Made by a program: the position numbers and the translations under genes. Of a stretch of DNA of 64,000 nucleotides, positions 15,804-26,795 are shown piece after piece. Source of the stretch: Streptomyces sp. Je 1-369 (GTDB lineage: Bacteria; Actinomycetota; Actinomycetes; Streptomycetales; Streptomycetaceae); contig NZ_CP101750.1 of NCBI RefSeq assembly GCF_026810505.1, positions 7,242,515 to 7,306,514 on the forward strand, read 5' to 3'. Position 1 is the first letter of the stretch. Each line of letters begins with the position of its first letter. Under the pieces are notes generated by a model. It was not told where the DNA came from. It saw nothing but the letters and a program-made list of their open reading frames with translations, and ran no database searches.

Positions 15804-16049
15804 TCACAGAAGCCCCCGCCGGATCGAGTCCGGCGGGGGCTTCTGCGTGCACGGGGTCACGCTGGTGGGCTGGCTCGGTAGATTCGCTTGCGCCCCACCG
15901 AGACGGCCCACCATCACCCATCCGAAAATCCGAAGTTGGCGTGGCGAAGACCTCTCCCCAGGGCCAGGGAGTGAGGTCAAAAGGAACGCGAAGAATCGGT
16001 CGGCGAGATCTGCGACGTTGCGCGCGATAAGGATTCCGATAGCGATCAT
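15804..16049 (-). CDS. Second small membrane protein, candidate immunity protein (decaying)
   Basis: The ATG at 16049 overlaps the stop of the displaced Rhs tip (ATGA). The product starts MIAIGILIARNVADLADRFF and later has RQLRIFGWVMVG, which aligns with the small membrane protein directly after the Rhs gene (VIGFILAANV..., TLRIIGAGIVML). It is thus a paralogue with the same two hydrophobic segments. After VMVG the sequence becomes charged and runs into a terminator hairpin, so the second membrane segment seems lost and the copy may be inactive. The frame is open further upstream to 16184, within the Rhs tip remnant. Confidence 0.45.
   Translation of the reverse strand: MIAIGILIARNVADLADRFFAFLLTSLPGPGERSSPRQLRIFGWVMVGRLGGAQANLPSQPTSVTPCTQKPPPDSIRRGLL
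15808..15844. terminator. Strong bidirectional hairpin terminator
   Basis: A perfect 16-bp stem, AGAAGCCCCCGCCGGA and its complement, with a 5-base loop (TCGAG). It lies at the end of the small-protein frame read leftward and downstream of the pcaL remnant read rightward, so it can stop transcription from both sides. Confidence 0.8.
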
Positions 16050-16279
16050 TGCCGCATAGAAGATCCATTGCTGCTCATGATGGAGATACCGCCGTTGAAG
16101 CCGACAGATGGTGTCTCTGATCCTTTGCTGAGGCTGACTCCGAAGTCGCTCTTTCCGTCCGGCCCAGCCGATCCGCTGAGGCACATGTCAGTCGTGTCCC
16201 CGCTGAAGCTCTGGGCTAGCTTCTTACGCTTGTCCGTGATCCAACCGCCCGCCTTCTTGTGCCCTTCCTGAACTACGTG
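16046..16279 (-). pseudogene. Displaced (orphan) Rhs C-terminal tip
   Basis: The minus strand reads, without a start codon, HKKAGGWITDKRKKLAQSFS, then GDTTDMCLSGSAGPDGKSDF and GVSLSKGSETPSVGFNGGIS, ending at TGA 16046. This parallels the end of the Rhs protein (KKVGGWFADKGKKVWEAYMG, GDTNGVCLSGS, RPDGKSDYGFSFSRGSETPS) with about 18 residues missing in the middle and the last 65 absent. A stop lies just upstream of the fragment. Start-less toxin tips followed by their own immunity gene are a hallmark of Rhs loci, where tips are swapped by recombination. Confidence 0.8.
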
Positions 16280-16385
16280 TGCTCAACACGTACGGGCCGA
16301 CCGAGCGGCGGGCCGGGCCGGTCCGGGGCGTACGGCGCGGCCCACCGCGAGGTGCTAATTATAAAAGGCTGACAGCTCTTCAAGC

Positions 16386-16598
16386 TCAACTCGCGAAAAG
16401 CTCCAGCGAGATCCCCAGTACAGACAGCATCACGATCCCTGCACCGATGATCCGCAGAGTTCCCGCCTTCGATCCGTCAGCATGACCGAATAGAGTCTGC
16501 GCCACGAATATCGAGAACCATTCAGCAGCACCCTTCACATTCGCAGCCAAAATAAAGCCGATGACTCCGAAGATCGAAAGGAAGAACATTAACCACAC
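16386..16598 (-). CDS. Small membrane protein, candidate immunity protein of the Rhs toxin
   Basis: A 67-70 residue protein; GTG at 16598 or, better by its AGGTG ribosome site, ATG at 16589. It has two hydrophobic segments (FFLSIFGVIGFILAA and IIGAGIVMLSVLGIS) around a short polar loop. It starts about 50-60 bp after the Rhs stop codon on the same strand, exactly where the immunity gene of a polymorphic toxin sits, and a paralogue sits in the same place after the displaced tip. No known immunity family is recognised. Its DNA is clearly AT-richer than the Rhs core. A membrane immunity protein would fit a toxin that acts on the cell membrane; this is inference. Confidence 0.7.
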   Translation of the reverse strand: MWLMFFLSIFGVIGFILAANVKGAAEWFSIFVAQTLFGHADGSKAGTLRIIGAGIVMLSVLGISLELFAS

Positions 16599-16648
16599 CT
16601 AACCTGTAAGACTTCGCCACGAGTGCAGCGCCAACCATGCCCGGACCA

Positions 16649-19600
16649 TCACCAGGTGAACCACTTCCAGGCTTTGGTTTTACTCGTGGTGACACCGGCT
16701 TCCGCACCTGCTGCTGCGCCGACGCTCAAGGATGTCGAGCCTACAGGTCTTCCGTAGTCATTGGTCGTCCCGATTCCTCGCTCGTGGGCGAGGTAAGCGC
16801 CGGGCCCCCAACCGCCACCAATGCTTCCACCCCACCCATCTCCTTCAAGTTGTTTGAGTGACGTCGCATTGCTGCCCATCATTCCCACCGTCAGGCTTCC
16901 TCCAACTGAGGGCGTCTCCGATCCCCTGGAAAAGGAGAATCCGTAGTCACTCTTCCCGTCGGGTCGCTTGGTTCTGACGAAGCATCCGGTCGCTGCTCCA
17001 CCAAATCCAACACCGATAGAGCCACTGAGACATACTCCGTTGGTATCTCCCATGTACGCCTCCCACACCTTCTTGCCCTTGTCCGCGAACCATCCGCCCA
17101 CCTTCTTGTACAAGGGCTGGGACGCCTTCTTGACCTGGTCCGCCTTGCGCCGTTGTTCGTCCGCGCGCTTCTGGGCGGCACGTGCGGCGGCATCGGCGCG
17201 TGCCCTGGCCTTCTGGGCTTCGTAGGCTCGGCTGCTGGATTTGTTATAGGCGGAGTAGGAGAAGCTTGAGCGGCTGCGTTCCGCACGTGACTGCTTGCTG
17301 TATGCCCGTCCGAAGGGGGTCCGGGTCCAGGCGATGTACCGGCGCACCGTCTTCACCACGTACTTGACGGCTTTAACCATCTTCATCAGGCCGAAGAAAA
17401 ACTTGCCGTCAGGATCGGCGTGGATGACCGGGTTGTTGTTGCCGTACGTGTAGCCGTGCATCTGCTGCGGATCGGCCGCGTCGATGACGGGGTCGACCGA
17501 GATGAACCGGCCGAGTGTGGGGTCGTATTCGCGGGCTCCGAGGTGGGTGAGTCCGGTGTTGTCGATCGTGCCACCGACGAAGCCTCGGGTGCCGGGCCAG
17601 TTGACGTTCTGTTCGCCGCGCGGTGTGCCGAAGATGTTCATCTTGCGGCGGGTGACCGCCTGGCCTGCGGCGAGGAGGACGGCTGCGGTGGCGGTGCCGG
17701 TGTGGTCGTTGAGGAGGATGCTGGTCTGGTTGCTCGCCTTGACCGCGACCGTGTCACCCCCCGCCGCGTAGTGGCGGGTCGATGATTTCGTGCCGTTCGC
17801 TTCGGCGGTCAGTTCGTTGCCGCCCGGCAGGTAGAGCGTGTTGCGTGCCGGTGTCTTCGCGATGAGACGATTGCCGTCGGCGTCGTAGACGTATTCCGTC
17901 TTCTGGCCCGACTTGGTCGCCGTTTCCAGGTGGCCTTCCTCGTCCCAGGTCATGTCCTGGGTGGTGCCCGCGAGGGTGCGCTTGGTGGTGTTGCCGGTCT
18001 TGTCGTACGCGTAGGTGTCGGTGGTCTTCTTGCCTGCCTCCTCGGTCGACACCCCGGTGAGCTGGCGCTTGGTCGCGCCGTTCTGGCCGTAGTGGTAGGT
18101 GCGGGTGATGTCGTTGGCCGTCAGGACGCTGCCTTCGACCTTGTGCTGGGTCTCGGTCTGGCGGTTGCCGATGGCGTCGTAGGTGTAGGAGTGCCAGTAG
18201 GCGTCGGGACCGCCGACCTTGGGCTTCTCGCCGCCGGTGCCGCCGTCAGCGTCGGGCTTGGCCTTGCAACTGTCGGTGGCGGTCCAGGCGTTGGTGATGC
18301 GGCGCAGCGCGTCGGTGGTGAAGCACTGCGTGTCCTTGGAGCGTGCCTCGTCCTGGCCGATGGCCGTGTCGAGGCGGGTGATGTTGCCCGCCAGGTCGAA
18401 GGTGTAGTGGATGTCGTCGACGCGCGACGGCCCGGTCTCGCGGTCGGTGGTGGTACGAGCCACGTTGCCCGTGTGCTCGTCGTACTCGTTCGTCTGCCAC
18501 ACCTTCTGGCCCTTGCGCCCGTACTCGGTGCGCAGGACCTGGCCGTACGGGTTGTATGTCCTGTTGTTGATCAGGACTGAGGCGGTGGTGCCTGCGCCGA
18601 CGAGTTGGTCCTGGGGGCCGTAGCGGTAGGTGAGGTTCTCGAATATCTGGCCGGGCAGGGCGGGTTGGCGGATCCAGTCCTGCAGGCCGGTCTGCGCGTT
18701 GTACCCGGAGGTGAAGGCGTACGTGCCGGCCAGAGTGCCCTCGCGGGCGGGGACGGTGACCTTGGTGCCGGTCGGCTGGTAGCGGTCGTTGAGTGCGGTG
18801 ATCTCGTTGGTGTAGTCCTGGCCGCCCTCGTGGCGGACCGACTTCGTCAACTGGCCCTTCGCCAGGGTGTCGTAGGTCCAGGTGGCCCGGGTCGTATTGC
18901 CTTGCTTGAGGGTCGTCTTGCGGCCCAGCGCGTCGTAGCCCGTCGTCAGGGCCTTGCCGGCGGCGTCGGTGACGGTCGTGGGGCGGTCGAGGCTGTCGTA
19001 GGCGGTGGTGTAGGTGTCCTTGTCCGGGTCGTCGACCTTGACCGCGCGGTCGCGGTGGTCGTAGTGATACGTCCACTTCGCGCCGGTCGGGTCGGTGACC
19101 GTCTTCTGCTTGCCCGACGGCGTGTAGGTGTACTTCGTCGACTGGGACTTGGTGCGGTCCGCGTTCGTGTACTGGATCAGCTCTGTGGTCTGGTCGCGTA
19201 CGTCGGTCACGGTGGTGGTGGCGGTGTCGCCCTTGGGCGGGATCACCGTCACCCGGTCGCCGCCGTACTGGGTCGTCGTGCGCGAGACCTCGTCCCCGTA
19301 CTTCTCCTTGATCTGCGCCGTGGGCCGTCCCGCGCCGTCGTAGGTAGTGCGGGTCGCCTTCGGGGTCTTGGTGTCGTCGCCCGTCACCAGTTCGCCGGAC
19401 GGGTCCCCGTTGGCGTAGTAGCCGTCGTAGGACTTCCACTCCAGGCCGCGGGAGTCGTAGAGCTTCTCGGCGATGATCCGGCCCTGGCCGGTCGCAGCGG
19501 GTGTCTGAACCTCACGTTCGCGGCCCAGACCGTCGGCGAAGGCGTAGTCGGCGCGGTAACTTCCGTTGCGCTGCAGCGTCTTGGTCTCGGTTACGTTCGG

Positions 19601-22600
19601 GCCGGTCTTGGTCACTGTGTAGGCGAACTGCCGGCTCGGGGCGTCGGCGTGGTCCTTCTTGGGCCAGCCCGGCTCCCATACCTTCACGGTGCGGCCGAGG
19701 CCGTCCAGGACGGCCTCGGTGCGCTTGCCGTTCGCGTCGACCGACGCCACCGGCGCACCGCGGCCCGCGTCGTTCTCCGCGGTCTCGGTGTGGCCGAGCG
19801 GGTTGGTGGTCACCTTCTTGGCCGCCGCGTACAGGGTCGAGGGGGTGTACGCGGTGGTGGTCTTCTGATCGGCGGCGTCGAGGGTCTCGGTGACGCGACC
19901 GTGCTGGTCTACCTTGTTCCGCTCCACCGTGACGAATCCGGTTCCGGCGGCGTTCTGTTCGTCGACCCGGGTGACGTCGCCCTTGTCCGGGGCGGCCCCC
20001 AGGGTCTTGTCGTCGAAGTAGGTGCGCGTGTCGGAGATCAGGTCGTCGGGGAGTTTGGGGTCGGTGCCGCACACCTTGGCCACGGTCTTGACCGCGGAGC
20101 TGAACTCCAGCATGTTCTTGGCCGTGTTGCGGGCGTAATTGGTGAACGTGCAGGTCTCGTCACCGGACTTGGCGGTGTCGCCCAGGTCGGACTCGCGAGA
20201 GAGCATGCCGTAGGAGTCGAAGGCCCGCTCGACCTTGGTGCGCTGCCAGTCCGTGCCGACCTGGGTGCGCCCGGCCTCGATCCGGGCCTCCTGGACGTGG
20301 AACGCCTCAAGGTCCGGCAGGCCGTCGCCGCGCTTGTGGGTGGCCGTCGCGGCCGACTTCCACGGGGTGGAGGCGGACGCTTCGATGATCTTGCTGTCGT
20401 TGAGCGTGGCCTCGTCCCGGGTCATCCCGGCGAAGGCGGGGTGATCGTCGACCTCGTTACCCTCGCTGTCGGCGACCTTCGCGCCGGGGATGCCACGGAA
20501 GAAGCGGGCCTCACTGACCTGCTTGGCTCCGTCCGTGCCAGCGCCGACCGAGGTCTTCACGCGGGCGTAGCCGCGGAAGTCGGAATGGGTGCGGTACTTG
20601 GCCTCGGTGAAGGCGTCGTCGCTCTTGGCCCAGGCCACGCCACCGGTGTAGGTGTAGTCGGTCTGCTTCGCGATGGCACCGCCGACCTTGTCCTCCTCGC
20701 GGACCTGGGTGACGGCGTAGGTGTGGAACCAGTCCTTGACCGGCTTGTAGTCGGCGCCGGGGGAGTCCGGCGAGGACCAGTACACCGGGTAGCAGCGCTT
20801 GGTGTTGCCCTGCTCGGACGGCAGGCTGCCGCGCGTGCACTCGGGGTCGCTGTAGGTGGCGGCGATGGTGCCGCCCATCTCGTTGTGGATCGCCTGTACC
20901 CGGTAGCGGATCAGCGGAGGGATACCGTCGCCGGTCGCATCCACCCGGTTGGCGAGCTGCTTGCCGATGAACGTGATCGGCGGCAGCGCTGTGGCCGTGC
21001 CACCGGTGTAGCCGGTTCGTTTGATCGACTTCAGCCACAGGGCGGGGGAGGAGCCATCTCCGGTGGAGGGGAAGCTGTGGCCGAAGGCCCAGGTGTCGAC
21101 CTTCTGGTACGTGTTCCCGACGCGGACCTCACTGGTGATGGACGCGATGCGCTTACGCGACCAGAACGAAGGGCTGTAGCGGTTCTTGCACTCGATACCG
21201 GGCGCGCAGTACTGGTCGAACGGCACGTCCGGCCAGTGCTTGGCGTTGGCGGCGGTGAACTTGTCGGCCGCGCAGTCGAACGAGCCGGACTTCACACACC
21301 GCTCCGCCGCCCTGAAGGTGACCTTCGCCGCAGGAGTGCCGGTGTAGAGGTTGTTGGAGCGCAGCCCGTACTCGATGCGCTTGAGGTAGCCGCCGCGCGT
21401 GTACGGGGTCGCCGTCGACTTGCCGGTGGAGAGCTGGACGTTGCGGCCGTAGTGGTTCTGTTCCTTGGACCAGTAGTAGGCCATGGCGTCGCCGTGCGGG
21501 TTCACCACGTAGTCCAGATTCCAGCGCCACGCCTGCTGGCACCACGCGGAGGCGAAGTCGGCCTTGTGGCAGGGCTCGCCGGAGTGGTTGCCGAACACCG
21601 GCACCGTCCAGGTCGAACCGGTCGTCTCCTTGCCGTCGGCGTGGCCGGGCAGCTTGTGGCGGCCGAAGAAGTACTGCACACCGGCGGTGTCGGTGACCTT
21701 CCAGTACTCGCCGTCATTGTCGCCGTTGCCGAGGGAGGCGTCCTTGAGGTGTTCGACCTTGCTGCCGTCGTCCTGCTTGAGCTTCCAGGCGCTGGTCTTG
21801 TCGTCCTTCACCAGTTCGTTGGTGGAGCCGCCCAGTGAGAGAACGGCGTTGTCTCCGGCCCAGCAGAGGTCGCCGTTCTTGGCCTTGTTCGTGCCGCCCG
21901 CCATGTCGGCGCTGCATGCCTTGTAGCGGCGCTCGATGAAGCCGGGCTCCAGGGTGAAGCCGTCACCGACGTTGTTGGCCTGGTTGTTGGTGGCCGCGGT
22001 GCGTCCATCCACGGCGGACGAGTTGTAGGCCAGTGACAGCTCTGGACCCAAGTCGCCTGCGGCGTCGGGGGTTTCGAGGTCGTAGGACCAGGTGAAGGCG
22101 CCCGAGGAGTCGCCGGCCTGCCAGTTGCCTGAGGGCGACAGCGAGGTCGCTTTATAGTCGCCGCTGGAGCCCGCCGGCTTCGAGGTCACGGCGAAGAGGG
22201 ACCGGACCTTGAGGGGCTTGGACACCGACTGTTCGGACGCCGACTGTTCGGACGCCGACTGTTCGGGTGTCGGCGGTTCGGACGCCGACTGCTTCTGCGG
22301 CGGCTCTGCCTCGCCCGGCTCCTTGTCCATCTCCGAGGCAGAGTCGCCCTCAAGGGCTACCCGGGCCGTCAGCTGGGACTTGTCGCCGTCGTTGTCGACT
22401 GCCTTGAGCGGGGTCGGTGTGCAGTCACCGTTGCCCTTGCCCTTGCTCCCGTCCTTGTCCTTTTCTTTGCTGGTCTTGGACAGGGCGCACTCGGGCAGCT
22501 CCACGAGCGTCAGGCGGGAGGCCCAATCTCCGCCCATGGCATTGCGGAACTCGCTGTAATCGATGGACAATTGGGCGTCGCCGCCTGTGGAATCGACGGC

Positions 22601-23110
22601 CATAACCAGTCCGTCGATTCCGGCCCGTTCGGCGGCATTTCGATCCAAGACCTCGACGCCGACCTCGCCTGCCACGGGATTCGCATTCTCGGCGCTGCGT
22701 GGGGTGGGGGTCTTCGATACGCGGACCGGAAGCGCACCGGCCTTCAGGCTGACTTCACGCTTGTCAGTCATGTTTGCCTTGGCATTGCCAGGCCTGGGCC
22801 AGGCTGCGTCAGGGATGGACTTCCATTCCTTGCCCGCCGTCTCATCCTTGGCGACCCCTGGCGCCGCCGCCTTCGCTGTGTCGCCCACCTTTGTGACCGG
22901 CACCGGCGGAGTCTTCTGCAGTTCCGGCAGCGCCAGCGGAGAGAAGGCCAGCGCTTCGGCAGAAACCGTCCCCACCAGGAGAGTTGCTGCGGTGAACGAC
23001 GTGACCGTTCGTACCGCGCCCCGACGCCACCATGCCCGTCTTGAGGGCTTGACTGTCGAGAACGCGCCTGGTGGCTCGTCGACTTCCCCGCGGACAGCAG
23101 TACGTGACAC
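16649..23110 (-). CDS. Secreted Rhs/YD-repeat polymorphic toxin
   Basis: A 2153-residue protein from a GTG with GGGGAGAGG upstream. A long signal peptide (hydrophobic FTAATLLVGTVSAEALAF, about residues 38-55) directs export. A Ser/Glu/Pro-rich linker with short repeats (QSASEQSASEQ) follows, then an actinobacterial Rhs N-terminal beta domain (GDLGPELSLAYNSSAVDGRT). Dozens of YD repeats (xYDxxGRxxxxxD) cover roughly residues 950-1800. The Rhs core ends with GAREYDPTLGRFISVDPVID, YGNNNPVIHA and the cleavage-type motif DPDG. The last 251 residues (16652-17404) are the variable tip. The YD shell is known to encapsulate the tip in relatives. The gene is divergent from a secreted FG-GAP protein and followed by a small membrane protein, giving a toxin-immunity layout. 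Confidence 0.93.
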   Translation of the reverse strand: MSRTAVRGEVDEPPGAFSTVKPSRRAWWRRGAVRTVTSFTAATLLVGTVSAEALAFSPLALPELQKTPPVPVTKVGDTAKAAAPGVAKDETAGKEWKSIPDAAWPRPGNAKANMTDKREVSLKAGALPVRVSKTPTPRSAENANPVAGEVGVEVLDRNAAERAGIDGLVMAVDSTGGDAQLSIDYSEFRNAMGGDWASRLTLVELPECALSKTSKEKDKDGSKGKGNGDCTPTPLKAVDNDGDKSQLTARVALEGDSASEMDKEPGEAEPPQKQSASEPPTPEQSASEQSASEQSVSKPLKVRSLFAVTSKPAGSSGDYKATSLSPSGNWQAGDSSGAFTWSYDLETPDAAGDLGPELSLAYNSSAVDGRTAATNNQANNVGDGFTLEPGFIERRYKACSADMAGGTNKAKNGDLCWAGDNAVLSLGGSTNELVKDDKTSAWKLKQDDGSKVEHLKDASLGNGDNDGEYWKVTDTAGVQYFFGRHKLPGHADGKETTGSTWTVPVFGNHSGEPCHKADFASAWCQQAWRWNLDYVVNPHGDAMAYYWSKEQNHYGRNVQLSTGKSTATPYTRGGYLKRIEYGLRSNNLYTGTPAAKVTFRAAERCVKSGSFDCAADKFTAANAKHWPDVPFDQYCAPGIECKNRYSPSFWSRKRIASITSEVRVGNTYQKVDTWAFGHSFPSTGDGSSPALWLKSIKRTGYTGGTATALPPITFIGKQLANRVDATGDGIPPLIRYRVQAIHNEMGGTIAATYSDPECTRGSLPSEQGNTKRCYPVYWSSPDSPGADYKPVKDWFHTYAVTQVREEDKVGGAIAKQTDYTYTGGVAWAKSDDAFTEAKYRTHSDFRGYARVKTSVGAGTDGAKQVSEARFFRGIPGAKVADSEGNEVDDHPAFAGMTRDEATLNDSKIIEASASTPWKSAATATHKRGDGLPDLEAFHVQEARIEAGRTQVGTDWQRTKVERAFDSYGMLSRESDLGDTAKSGDETCTFTNYARNTAKNMLEFSSAVKTVAKVCGTDPKLPDDLISDTRTYFDDKTLGAAPDKGDVTRVDEQNAAGTGFVTVERNKVDQHGRVTETLDAADQKTTTAYTPSTLYAAAKKVTTNPLGHTETAENDAGRGAPVASVDANGKRTEAVLDGLGRTVKVWEPGWPKKDHADAPSRQFAYTVTKTGPNVTETKTLQRNGSYRADYAFADGLGREREVQTPAATGQGRIIAEKLYDSRGLEWKSYDGYYANGDPSGELVTGDDTKTPKATRTTYDGAGRPTAQIKEKYGDEVSRTTTQYGGDRVTVIPPKGDTATTTVTDVRDQTTELIQYTNADRTKSQSTKYTYTPSGKQKTVTDPTGAKWTYHYDHRDRAVKVDDPDKDTYTTAYDSLDRPTTVTDAAGKALTTGYDALGRKTTLKQGNTTRATWTYDTLAKGQLTKSVRHEGGQDYTNEITALNDRYQPTGTKVTVPAREGTLAGTYAFTSGYNAQTGLQDWIRQPALPGQIFENLTYRYGPQDQLVGAGTTASVLINNRTYNPYGQVLRTEYGRKGQKVWQTNEYDEHTGNVARTTTDRETGPSRVDDIHYTFDLAGNITRLDTAIGQDEARSKDTQCFTTDALRRITNAWTATDSCKAKPDADGGTGGEKPKVGGPDAYWHSYTYDAIGNRQTETQHKVEGSVLTANDITRTYHYGQNGATKRQLTGVSTEEAGKKTTDTYAYDKTGNTTKRTLAGTTQDMTWDEEGHLETATKSGQKTEYVYDADGNRLIAKTPARNTLYLPGGNELTAEANGTKSSTRHYAAGGDTVAVKASNQTSILLNDHTGTATAAVLLAAGQAVTRRKMNIFGTPRGEQNVNWPGTRGFVGGTIDNTGLTHLGAREYDPTLGRFISVDPVIDAADPQQMHGYTYGNNNPVIHADPDGKFFFGLMKMVKAVKYVVKTVRRYIAWTRTPFGRAYSKQSRAERSRSSFSYSAYNKSSSRAYEAQKARARADAAARAAQKRADEQRRKADQVKKASQPLYKKVGGWFADKGKKVWEAYMGDTNGVCLSGSIGVGFGGAATGCFVRTKRPDGKSDYGFSFSRGSETPSVGGSLTVGMMGSNATSLKQLEGDGWGGSIGGGWGPGAYLAHERGIGTTNDYGRPVGSTSLSVGAAAGAEAGVTTSKTKAWKWFTW
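16652..17404 (-). other. Rhs C-terminal toxin tip, unrecognised domain
   Basis: The 251 residues after DPDG contain a hydrophobic/basic start (FFFGLMKMVKAVKYVVKTV), an Ala/Arg/Lys-rich coiled coil (residues 60-95 of the tip), then KKVGGWFADKGKKVWEAY and a long Gly-rich part with alternating hydrophobic residues (CLSGSIGVGFGGAATGCF, GGSLTVGMMG, GGSIGGGWGPGAYLAHERG, STSLSVGAAAGAEAGV). No nuclease, deaminase or ADP-ribosyltransferase motif was recognised. The repeating Gly-rich strands resemble amphipathic beta hairpins, so a membrane-inserting toxin is one possibility. Confidence 0.6.
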
Positions 23111-23245: not shown

Positions 23246-23388
23246 GAAAGTTAAGGACCAAAGACACTTTGAGCATCCGAACCACGATGCGGGGAATGGG
23301 ATGTGACGGGTGTACGGGTGTGGGGTACGTTCCGCTGTGCTGATCCCAGGCGTCACGCCCTGGTCGAATTTCTGTGAAGGGACCCCTG

Positions 23389-26300
23389 TTGAGAACAGGC
23401 CGTCAACCCCGAAACTCCCGGCGTACGTTGCCTCGTATATCGTTGGCCTGCGCTCTGGCCACGGCCCTCGCCATTCCGGTTCTGGCCGTGTCGCAAGCTT
23501 CCGCGGAGCCCGGGCCAACCAGCCAGGAGCAGGCGAGGCAGGCAACCGGCGCGGAACCGGAGACGGCCGCATCGCGCAAGGCCGCACAGACAGGCGAACG
23601 GGTCGAAGTGCTCGCCCACCGCACCCAGTTCGACACGGTCTACGCCAACCCCGATGGCACCTTCACGGAGGAGACGGCGGCGGCGCCGGTCCGCGTGAAG
23701 CAGGACAACTCTCTGGTCGACGTCGACACCACCCTGCGTCTGCGGGACGGCGCGGTCCGTCCGAAGGCAGTCGACGTCGGCCTGGAGTTCTCCTCCGGCG
23801 GCGACGCGCCGTTGGTGACGATCACCCGCAACGATCGTTCCCTGACAGTCGATTGGCCGGGCCGGCTGCCCACCCCTCGCCTGGAGGGTGACACCGCCGT
23901 CTACCCGGAGGTGGCGCCGGGCATCGACCTGCGCATGCAGGCGGGCGTGGACGGCTATCAGCAACTGCTCGTGGTCAAGACCCGCGAGGCCGCCGACAAC
24001 CCCCTGCTCAAGCAGGTCCGCTACGGTCTCGATGCCGACGGGGTGAGCGTCAGCACCGATCAGGCCGGCAACCTCACCGCGGTCAACCCCGCCGGGCAGG
24101 AGGTGTTCACCGCCCCGGCGCCCGAGATGTGGGACTCGGCCGGTGTCCCCGACACACAGCTGTCCACGGCCAAGACCAAGGCCGCCAGGACCAAGGACGT
24201 CGCCGCCCTGCTGAACGAGCAGGCGGACAAGCCCGCCACGCGCAGCGAGGACGTCTTCGAGCCCCGCTACGGCGCCACCACCACCCGTATGCCCCTCAAA
24301 GCGGGCAGCGATGAACTGGTCGTGACGCCGGATCAGAAGGTGCTGTCCGACCCGGACACCGTCTTCCCCGTCTACATCGACCCGACCGTATCCAGCCCCC
24401 GCCTGGGCTGGACCGCGGTCAGCAAGAAGCACCCCAGCACCTCGTACTGGAACCACTCCTCCAAGGTCGCCCGGGTCGGCCACGAGTCGGAGACCAGCGG
24501 CACCTGGCGCTCCTTCGTCCAGTTCGACCCGCGCAAGCTGCACGGCAAGCAGATCACCAAGTCCACCCTGCGCATCAAGAACACGCACTCCTGGTCCTGC
24601 ACCAAGAAGCCCGTCGAGGCATGGCTGACCGGGGAGATCTCCTCGGCCACGACGTGGAACAAGCAGCCCGGTTGGTGGAAGAAGTACGCCACGGTCACCG
24701 ACGCCAAGGGCTGGTCGTCCTCGTGCCCGGCCGGGAACCTGGAGTTCAACGTCAAGGGCGCCACCGCGGACGCCGCGGCCAAGAAGTGGAAGAAGATCTC
24801 CTTCGGGCTGCGCGCCAGCGAGAGCGACGTGCACGCGTGGAAGAAGTTCGACGCCTCCACCGCCGTGCTGTCCACCGAGTACAACTCGGTGCCGAACAAG
24901 CCCTCGAACCTGGACACGGTGCCCAGCATCCGAGTCAACAACACCTGCGGTGACAAGGGCACCTATGTCACCGTCGGCAACACCGACGTACAGCTGACCG
25001 CGAAGGTCTCCGACCCCGACGGCGGCAGCGTGACCGCACGCTTCCATCTGTGGCCCACCGGCAAGCACGACACCAGCCCTGGCATCGTCGTCAACCGCGA
25101 CGTGAAGGTCACCTCCGGCAATGTCGCCCGCACTACCGTCTCCAAAGCCCTGCTCACCCAGCACCTCGGCGCTGCGAAAGGCAGCTACTCGTGGAAGGTG
25201 CAGGCCCGTGACGGCAAGGCCAACTCCGCCTGGAACCCCACCCAGGGTGCGCCCGGCTGCCGCTTCGCCTTCGACCCGAACCGGCCCAGCAACCCGCCCA
25301 GTATCACCTCCACCCAGTTCCCCGACGGACAGGACGGCTGGCCCGGGAACACCTCCCCCGCCCGCACCGAGGGCACCTTCACGCTGTCTTCCGCAGGCAT
25401 CAAGGACGTCGTCAAGTACGAGTACTGGACCGACTGGGATCCCAAGGTCCGCTCCGTTAACACGCCTTCCGCAGGCGGCAGTACGAAGGTCAAGCTCACC
25501 CCGCCCTCGACCGGCCCCCAGCGCATCTTCGCCCGCTCCCTGGACAGGGCGAACAACAAGTCCGACACCCGCACCTACCTCTTCTACGCCAACCCCACCG
25601 GCAAGACCGATGAGCCCGGCGACCTCAACGGCGACGGCAACCCCGACCTGCTCGCCCTGCGCGACACCGGACAGCTGCGCATGTACGCGGGACAGGGCAA
25701 TGGCCACATCGGCACCACCAGCGACGCCAGCACCCAGAACTTCACCGGCTCCCTGATCACCCGACGCGGCGACTGGACCGAGGACGGCTACGAAGACCTC
25801 GTCACCACCACTGGCGCCAAGGGCAGCCGACAACTGCACGTTCACCCCAACAACGGCTTCGGCTACGCCTGCACCAGTTACGGCGAGGAGGCGAACGGCT
25901 CCGCGTGCGGCGACGGACGCCGGGACCTGAGCCTGTACGACCCGGCCAACGACCACATCAAGAACGCCGACCAGATCCTGGCCATCGGCGACGTCGACGG
26001 CCCCACCGACCTGGACGGCAACGGCAAGATCGACGAATGGGACCTGCCCTCCTTCCCCGACCTGCTGGTCAAGGAAGGCAACCACCTGTGGCTCTACTTC
26101 GGCCATGCCACGGGCTACCTCGACGAATACGCCGAACCCGTCCTCGTCGGCGACGGCGGCTGGTCCGGATATGACCTCGCCGCCCCCGGCGACGTCACCA
26201 AGAACAACCACGTCGACCTGCTCGCACGTAAGCGCAGCACCGGCGAACTGTTCACCTACGAAGGCACCGGCCCGGACGGCGAAGGGCTCGGCTCCGGGGC

Positions 26301-26514
26301 ACGCAAGCTGACGGCCACCGGCTTCACCCCCGCCGCCCGCCCCCTGCTCACCTCGGCCACGGACGCCGACAACGACGGCGTCCCTGACCTGTGGGCCACC
26401 ACGAACGACACCAGCCGGGGGCTGCACTTCTACCCACGCCTGACGGCCGGTGGCCTCGGTGCTCCGGCCACGATCGGCACGGGCGGCTGGGACAAGATGA
26501 CCGCCCTCGGCTGA
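23389..26514 (+). CDS. Secreted DNRLRE/FG-GAP repeat protein
   Basis: About 1041 residues. The TTG at 23389 has GAAGGGA upstream; a GTG at 23374 in the same frame lacks a ribosome site. A signal peptide (SLACALATALAIPVLAV, then SQASAEP) leads it out of the cell. A DNRLRE-type beta domain covers roughly residues 320-520 (around FVQFDPRKLHGKQITKSTLR and AWLTGEISSATTWN). Ig-like segments follow. The last third has FG-GAP/VCBS-type repeats with Ca-binding loops (GDLNGDGNPDLLALRD, GDVDGPTDLDGNGKID, DADNDGVPDLWATTND). Such proteins commonly sit next to Rhs genes in Streptomyces and may aid their surface display, delivery or adhesion; the precise role is unknown. It is divergent from the Rhs gene and shares its promoter region. 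Confidence 0.88.
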   Translation: MRTGRQPRNSRRTLPRISLACALATALAIPVLAVSQASAEPGPTSQEQARQATGAEPETAASRKAAQTGERVEVLAHRTQFDTVYANPDGTFTEETAAAPVRVKQDNSLVDVDTTLRLRDGAVRPKAVDVGLEFSSGGDAPLVTITRNDRSLTVDWPGRLPTPRLEGDTAVYPEVAPGIDLRMQAGVDGYQQLLVVKTREAADNPLLKQVRYGLDADGVSVSTDQAGNLTAVNPAGQEVFTAPAPEMWDSAGVPDTQLSTAKTKAARTKDVAALLNEQADKPATRSEDVFEPRYGATTTRMPLKAGSDELVVTPDQKVLSDPDTVFPVYIDPTVSSPRLGWTAVSKKHPSTSYWNHSSKVARVGHESETSGTWRSFVQFDPRKLHGKQITKSTLRIKNTHSWSCTKKPVEAWLTGEISSATTWNKQPGWWKKYATVTDAKGWSSSCPAGNLEFNVKGATADAAAKKWKKISFGLRASESDVHAWKKFDASTAVLSTEYNSVPNKPSNLDTVPSIRVNNTCGDKGTYVTVGNTDVQLTAKVSDPDGGSVTARFHLWPTGKHDTSPGIVVNRDVKVTSGNVARTTVSKALLTQHLGAAKGSYSWKVQARDGKANSAWNPTQGAPGCRFAFDPNRPSNPPSITSTQFPDGQDGWPGNTSPARTEGTFTLSSAGIKDVVKYEYWTDWDPKVRSVNTPSAGGSTKVKLTPPSTGPQRIFARSLDRANNKSDTRTYLFYANPTGKTDEPGDLNGDGNPDLLALRDTGQLRMYAGQGNGHIGTTSDASTQNFTGSLITRRGDWTEDGYEDLVTTTGAKGSRQLHVHPNNGFGYACTSYGEEANGSACGDGRRDLSLYDPANDHIKNADQILAIGDVDGPTDLDGNGKIDEWDLPSFPDLLVKEGNHLWLYFGHATGYLDEYAEPVLVGDGGWSGYDLAAPGDVTKNNHVDLLARKRSTGELFTYEGTGPDGEGLGSGARKLTATGFTPAARPLLTSATDADNDGVPDLWATTNDTSRGLHFYPRLTAGGLGAPATIGTGGWDKMTALG

Positions 26515-26574
26515 CGCCCGCGGACTGCGGTCTGCCTCTGCCGTCCGCGGTACGACGCGCAACTCGCATGACGA

Positions 26575-26604
26575 GTGGGGAGGCCCCGCGATGGGCCTCC
26601 CCAC
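26575..26604. terminator. Hairpin terminator after the FG-GAP gene
   Basis: A perfect 12-bp stem GTGGGGAGGCCC with complement and a 6-base loop, 60 bp past the stop codon. There is no T tract, as is usual in Streptomyces. The remaining 190 bp before pcaL holds no recognisable gene. Confidence 0.75.
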
Positions 26605-26795
26605 CTCCTCGAGCTGCGCGCCGCCACGCCCTCGGATCCCGGATCTTGCCGCGCGCACCCTAGTACCACCTCGACTCAGGACTTCACCCCGTGCACCACC
26701 GTCCCCACTCCCGCCACCGTCGCCTCCGCCCCCGCCCGAGAGGTCTTCAACCTGGTCAAGTCGGTCTCTACCGACCCCCTGTTATAGGGGCTGTC

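Follow-up and report, generated by a model that had tools for sequence, protein, structure and literature searches.

What does an Rhs protein deliver when its tip resembles no known enzyme, and what is the role of the small membrane protein encoded beside it? These questions are raised by a locus in Streptomyces sp. Je 1-369, which lies in a stretch of 64,000 nucleotides (contig NZ_CP101750.1, positions 7,242,515 to 7,306,514; hereafter the window) of an 8.8-Mb genome in one contig, whose nearest named relatives are Streptomyces. The open reading frames (ORFs) of the window bear out the order given in a preliminary description: on the minus strand, an Rhs core is followed by a first tip (tip 1), a small protein (small protein 1), a second, start-less tip (tip 2) and a second small protein (small protein 2). 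The locus is real and probably encodes a polymorphic toxin-immunity pair, so far unclassified, with a decayed second module. Its tip is probably a barrel-shaped toxin with a predicted shape matching that of virulence proteins (Vap) of the horse pathogen Rhodococcus equi, and the neighbouring small membrane protein probably serves the producer as an antidote.

The carrier has the composition of an Rhs polymorphic toxin, as YD/RHS repeats (Pfam RHS_repeat, E 2.9e-8) and an Rhs-associated core (NCBIfam TIGR03696, 54.6 bits against a cut-off of 32.5) stand upstream of a variable tip. The core is closed by a DPDG motif, which we take to be the tip boundary, and the variable part starts after it; a signal-like hydrophobic stretch was seen by eye near the N-terminus. 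The core is 87–94% identical to the cores of proteins P0002–P0005, and the tip shares 98% identity with P0002 and 57–61% with the other three. The tip had been described as a unit of 251 residues, of which only about the last 131 form the conserved domain, while the preceding 117 are a strain-variable linker (99% identity to P0002, 85% to P0004, 66% to P0005, and 57% to P0003, but there over only 37 of the 117 residues). The partner gene lies directly downstream of tip 1 after a gap of 50 bases; the two hydrophobic segments of small protein 1 have mean hydropathies of 2.5 and 2.2, and its database entry (P0001, 67 residues) begins three codons later than the ORF in Table 1. Elsewhere in the genome, the RHS_repeat profile found six further ORFs or clusters (one by a single weak repeat), and the partner profile described below matched this locus only.

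Table 1. Features of the Rhs locus (positions within the window)
Feature	Positions	Strand	Basis
Rhs/YD-repeat protein, tip carrier, 2153 residues, GTG start	16649..23110	-	ORF; Pfam RHS_repeat; NCBIfam TIGR03696
Rhs-associated core, residues 1827-1902, DPDG motif at its end	17405..17632	-	TIGR03696 match
Variable linker, core to toxin, 117 residues, Lys/Ala-rich	17045..17395	-	sequence comparison
Tip 1, putative toxin domain of about 131 residues, predicted Vap-type beta-barrel of eight strands	16652..17044	-	
Small protein 1, 70 residues, GTG start, two hydrophobic helices, proposed immunity protein	16386..16598	-	
Remnant of tip 2, start-less, internally shortened in frame, stop at about tip-1 residue 88	16046..16261	-	
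Remnant of small protein 2, within ORF 15804-16184, retains first helix and loop, lacks second helix	15903..16067	-	

In the protein database, four named proteins from Streptomyces carry the tip, as do two loci in genome contigs. Its four-row profile matched 18 of 392 genomes of the genus (own genome included; the sample was taken as Streptomyces from the nearest named relatives), and a 21-row profile matched nine of 297 genomes sampled from the family and three of 296 sampled from the phylum (own genome included in both); all these counts are lower bounds, as only part of the first-look candidates per genome was scored. Family members are as low as 22% identical to tip 1, and five residues (G25, N81, A82, G90 and N117) are invariant in the 21 tip rows. 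Neither tip nor partner matched a Pfam or NCBIfam family (21 tips and 7 partner sequences were scanned with Pfam, 6 tips and 7 partner sequences with NCBIfam), in agreement with the earlier description of a tip with no known enzyme motif and of a likely new immunity family. Weak matches to PRK10636, DUF973, OpcA, DUF5930, DUF308, YqiJ_N and others (E 0.03–1) were judged to be chance, as were six matches of the partner profile to solved structures (E 0.29–0.38); the tip profile gave no match to solved structures at E ≤ 1. The locus thus shares with known Rhs/YD-repeat polymorphic toxins a core above the NCBIfam cut-off, a variable tip after the core, an adjacent partner and a displaced module, but differs from them in tip and partner families that are not described in the libraries searched.

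In the protein database, small protein 1 found solely the window's own protein, and the tip alignment found at least one protein, P0006 (part of the candidates scored). The latter has 280 residues and two helix-turn-helix Pfam domains, which may be part of a transposase, and closes with a piece of tip; an insertion element may have jumped into a tip gene here. Locus L086 (G204:C2:698000-714000) is a tandem array of three Rhs core fragments with as many tips and partners, the last tip being split in two, and apparently records successive tip replacements within one locus. Repeats or second pieces of counted loci (L001-L004, L025, L027, L028, L036-L038) and repeats among L041-L061 were not counted as separate tips; L047, L053, L057, L060 and L062-L070, with a partner match and no tip profile match in the fetched stretch, were treated as orphan candidates.

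Context lends good support to the earlier proposal that tip and membrane protein form a toxin-immunity pair. Within the first set, a short ORF with two hydrophobic segments lies downstream of 20 of the 21 tips, on the same strand; only L024 lacks one. The tips found later provide a fair test, and six of the nine (L029-L033 and L035) are followed by a match to the partner profile, with best local E-values per locus from 2e-13 to 2e-3. Distances among tips correlate with distances among their partners (Mantel r 0.641 for 24 pairs, 20 from the first set and 4 later; 0.459 after thinning to 18 pairs; 0 of 20000 permutations in either case). The broken tips of L033 and L035 are counted among the nine later tips and lie outside the 24 pairs.

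Several points weigh against the pairing. The partner ORFs of the first set were chosen by hydropathy, and the 22-row partner profile was made from them, so that 20 of 21 holds by construction. L024 is without a two-helix partner, no partner match was detected downstream of three of the nine later tips (L034, L039 and L040, the last scored as a miss with its tip below the local threshold), and linked inheritance rather than binding could be behind part of the distance correlation. In L024/L087 (G007), the tip is followed by an ORF of 253 residues with several hydrophobic stretches. L039 and L040 carry remote tip relatives outside the window's family, and by eye a soluble-looking ORF of 148 residues and a lipoprotein-like ORF of 225 residues follow; different immunity types may exist.

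The partner profile matched 65 of the 392 genus genomes, of which 17 belong to the 18 that have a tip and 48 to the 374 that lack one, and many of the weak matches are probably chance matches of membrane helices. Around tip-less partner matches, 15 stretches of 17–18 kb were inspected (L086 and L087, fetched for their tips, are outside this set); no tip match was found in any of them, and an Rhs core was found in two (L081 and L085) and in none of the other 13, with a local core profile made from four close sequences that may miss remote cores. Wide occurrence of the small proteins without Rhs tips, named in the preliminary description as a finding that would speak against the pair, was thus encountered in part, yet several strong orphans are recognisable subtypes of tip-linked partners, as expected of orphan immunity genes. 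For example, orphans L071, L073, L083 and L084 look by eye like the L009 and L010 partners, L074 like the L012 partner, and L085 like the second partner of L022. Tandem partner copies are also present, three in L029 and two each in L005, L022, L032 and L035. Immunity genes usually occur also as orphans and tandem copies.

This distribution bears on a reading in which the Rhs-Vap protein would be aimed at eukaryotes, such as soil protozoa engulfing Streptomyces, with the small protein as its chaperone or anchor. The Vap proteins known so far act in the vacuoles of macrophages, and amoebae have been discussed in connection with VapA (PMC11323580; published statements on Vap proteins and depolarising toxins are taken here and below from excerpts of the papers). 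However, the partner is found as orphans, which is not expected of a chaperone or anchor, and in tandem arrays; moreover, it is a membrane protein whose distances track those of the tip. We consider this reading very unlikely.

The local Rhs-core profile was positive upstream of the tip in 20 of 30 loci. Among the ten negative loci, Pfam finds RHS repeats in L019 and L024, YD-type or core-end sequence was seen by eye in L013 and L031, and L032, L033 and L040 were not assigned to a carrier type. The remaining three (L015, L016 and L018) have a WXG100-like N-terminus in place of Rhs, with carrier and tip of L018 in two frames. Their best NCBIfam match is TIGR03930 (E 1.5e-3, 5.4e-5 and 8.9e-4, respectively, all below the curated cut-off), spanning about positions 2-83 of 90; Pfam gave, likewise below cut-off, WXG100 for L015 (E 0.0075) and PPE for L016 (E 6.2e-4). 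These N-termini suggest type VII export of the tip in some strains. Finding the same tip-partner combination behind Rhs and WXG100-like proteins, two unrelated kinds of putative export carrier, speaks well for a self-contained toxin-immunity cassette. In front of each WXG100-like carrier lies a further open frame, about 150-190 codons long.

What the tip might do was approached through its predicted fold. Apart from short helices, the tip models all-beta, no enzyme fold stands at the top of the structure match lists, and the R. equi Vaps are among the closest known systems (VapB, VapD and VapG by structure, VapA by function; PF05526). In the Vaps, the closed eight-stranded barrel has a transposed strand order (beta1-2-3-8-5-6-7-4). 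The tips also show a Vap-type Gly-rich C-terminal segment followed by Trp: Gly averages 20.5% over the last 131 residues, and 20 of 24 tips have a Trp among their final 12 residues. Of the other folds listed, the lipocalin, fluorescent-protein and OmpA-type matches were judged to be generic barrels. The two systems differ in setting: the R. equi Vaps are encoded on plasmids and target host cells, and the tip is fused to an Rhs or WXG100-like carrier and comes with a membrane partner. Among the open-licence papers listed, titles and abstract openings contained no link of Vap to Rhs toxins or immunity proteins; VapA is not mentioned in the searched part of PMC3482391, from a listing on Streptomyces, Rhs and polymorphic toxins, nor Vap in a paper on Tse4 (PMC12169545).

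As a whole, the evidence is rather likely to be explained by a polymorphic toxin-immunity pair in which a Vap-type barrel permeabilises membranes and the two-helix partner acts as its blocker. A secreted Rhs shell protein would bear a C-terminal toxin domain, a closed eight-stranded Vap-type beta-barrel, and release it into or onto a neighbouring cell, where the barrel would bind the cytoplasmic membrane and render it permeable to ions; the 70-residue protein in the producer's own membrane would block the tip within the membrane, and the second module would be the decayed rest of an earlier pair, displaced when the present tip arrived. The analysis establishes the anatomy, the family, how the genes are paired, their occurrence on two kinds of carrier and the predicted fold, and from these we infer export, toxicity, permeabilisation and neutralisation. 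Permeabilisation of the cytoplasmic membrane appears likeliest because of the activity of VapA, the existence of depolarising tips with two-helix partners and the location of the partner in the membrane. VapA releases dye from brain-lipid liposomes and collapses proton gradients via membrane permeabilisation (PMC10100859), and small two-helix immunity proteins accompany known depolarising toxin tips (PMC11630599). A membrane-acting toxin, as supposed in the preliminary description, is thus likely, on the different grounds of the predicted Vap-type barrel and the reported permeabilisation by VapA.

A number of observations weigh against this explanation. Foldseek alone gave modest matches (best E 2.8e-3 and 6.3e-4; template modelling (TM) score ≤ 0.42 by query and ≤ 0.55 by target; root-mean-square deviation > 6), and tip and Vap chains are only 9-12% identical in structural (VIA) alignments. 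The two models were made from overlapping shallow alignments (21 and 27 rows) and are hence not fully independent. Pfam PF05526 (R_equi_Vir) matched none of the 21 tips at E up to 10 and nothing in 199 genus genomes, where the positive control likewise gave no match. VapA itself binds phosphatidic-acid liposomes and needs acidic pH and anionic lipid, VapB, unlike VapA, does not raise phagosome pH, and work cited in the same paper has VapA stiffening membranes unlike known pore formers (PMC10100859).

The differing biochemistry of Vap paralogues leaves room for a toxin with a binding barrel, which would sequester a lipid, a lipid-linked wall precursor or a membrane protein, with the partner shielding that target. 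VapD has a bald nonpolar spot that binds detergent, and binding of ordered lipid was suggested (PMC4118825); a partner in the membrane suits this scheme whatever the exact target. Nevertheless, VapA, the best-studied member of the fold, is reported to permeabilise, and depolarising toxins are known with immunity proteins of the same size and shape, so that sequestration seems unlikely to us.

The resemblance to Vap could also be convergent, with the true kin of the tip among Ntox25/Tse4-type barrel ionophores that depolarise membranes. For Ntox25 (PF15530) tips of CdiA, disruption of the membrane potential is reported and a tapered beta-barrel predicted, and Tse4 is modelled likewise (PMC11630599); both come with immunity proteins, as proposed here. 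Their carriers are different, however, and PF15530 matched none of the 21 tips at E up to 10 and nothing in the 199 genomes, where its positive control was also silent; the comparison is by description, not by structure. We find convergence somewhat unlikely, and compatible with a permeabilising Vap-type barrel, as mechanism would be the same and descent different. Also comparable are the helical ionophore tips of contact-dependent growth inhibition (CDI) systems, with hydrophobic two-helix immunity proteins of 72-100 residues; Tse5, an Rhs tip, is likewise comparable. CDI ionophores are, however, helical bundles, whereas the tip models all-beta with no clear membrane helix, and a helical pore was dropped as a candidate (top 19-residue hydropathy 1.38 in tip 1 and ≤ 1.71 among 24 tips). 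The partner loop is richer in Lys/Arg than the ends in 22 of 24 cases, with at most 15 residues before the first helix counted, and a cytosolic loop is therefore predicted, in contrast to CDI immunity proteins, whose N- and C-termini are in.

The predicted Vap fold is what sets the locus above an ordinary new tip. With it, the arsenal of actinobacterial warfare gains a tip family predicted to be barrel-shaped and a family of proposed two-helix immunity proteins, and a tip with a candidate antidote is a system for testing the fold's membrane activity and its inhibition. For Vap proteins, the locus also suggests a bacterial origin and a mechanism that can be tested; the Vap relatives that the VapD paper listed from other bacteria had no known function at the time (PMC4118825). 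At its root the fold might be an antibacterial membrane-permeabilising toxin on Rhs or type VII carriers with two-helix immunity, the R. equi Vaps being secreted descendants turned on phagosome membranes and Ntox25/Tse4 barrels maybe belonging to the same superfamily; we offer this tentatively and regard it as doubtful.

The displaced second module of the preliminary description is real in origin, and we read it as the decayed remnant of an earlier tip-immunity pair left after tip exchange, with no working second module, because tip 2 is of half length with a deletion and small protein 2 is without its second helix. A search of its own genome with the tip gave no match at E ≤ 0.001 apart from the tip itself and tip 2 (E 1.1e-12, 56% identity, query residues 1-88 of 153). 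Tip 2 corresponds to roughly the first half of the domain, with an internal in-frame stretch of about 16 residues gone. Small protein 1 found only itself and, weakly, small protein 2 (E 0.065, 16.9 bits, 35% identity), which a profile of relatives built without it recovered at E 1.7e-8; small protein 2 has one hydrophobic segment against two in small protein 1. Homology of both parts, claimed as paralogy, is upheld by these matches, but displacement is favoured over duplication of tip 1: tip 2 is nearer to tips of other strains (P0004 69%, P0005 63%, P0003 56%) than to tip 1 (46%). At the DNA level, homology between the modules opens with 41 bases at 85% identity (16220-16260), upstream of which no significant match was found between 606 bases of module 2 and 1041 bases of module 1.

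An ORF of 1101 residues (23353-26658, minus strand), which lies immediately upstream of the Rhs gene, matched nothing in Pfam at E ≤ 0.01 and nothing in NCBIfam at E ≤ 0.1.
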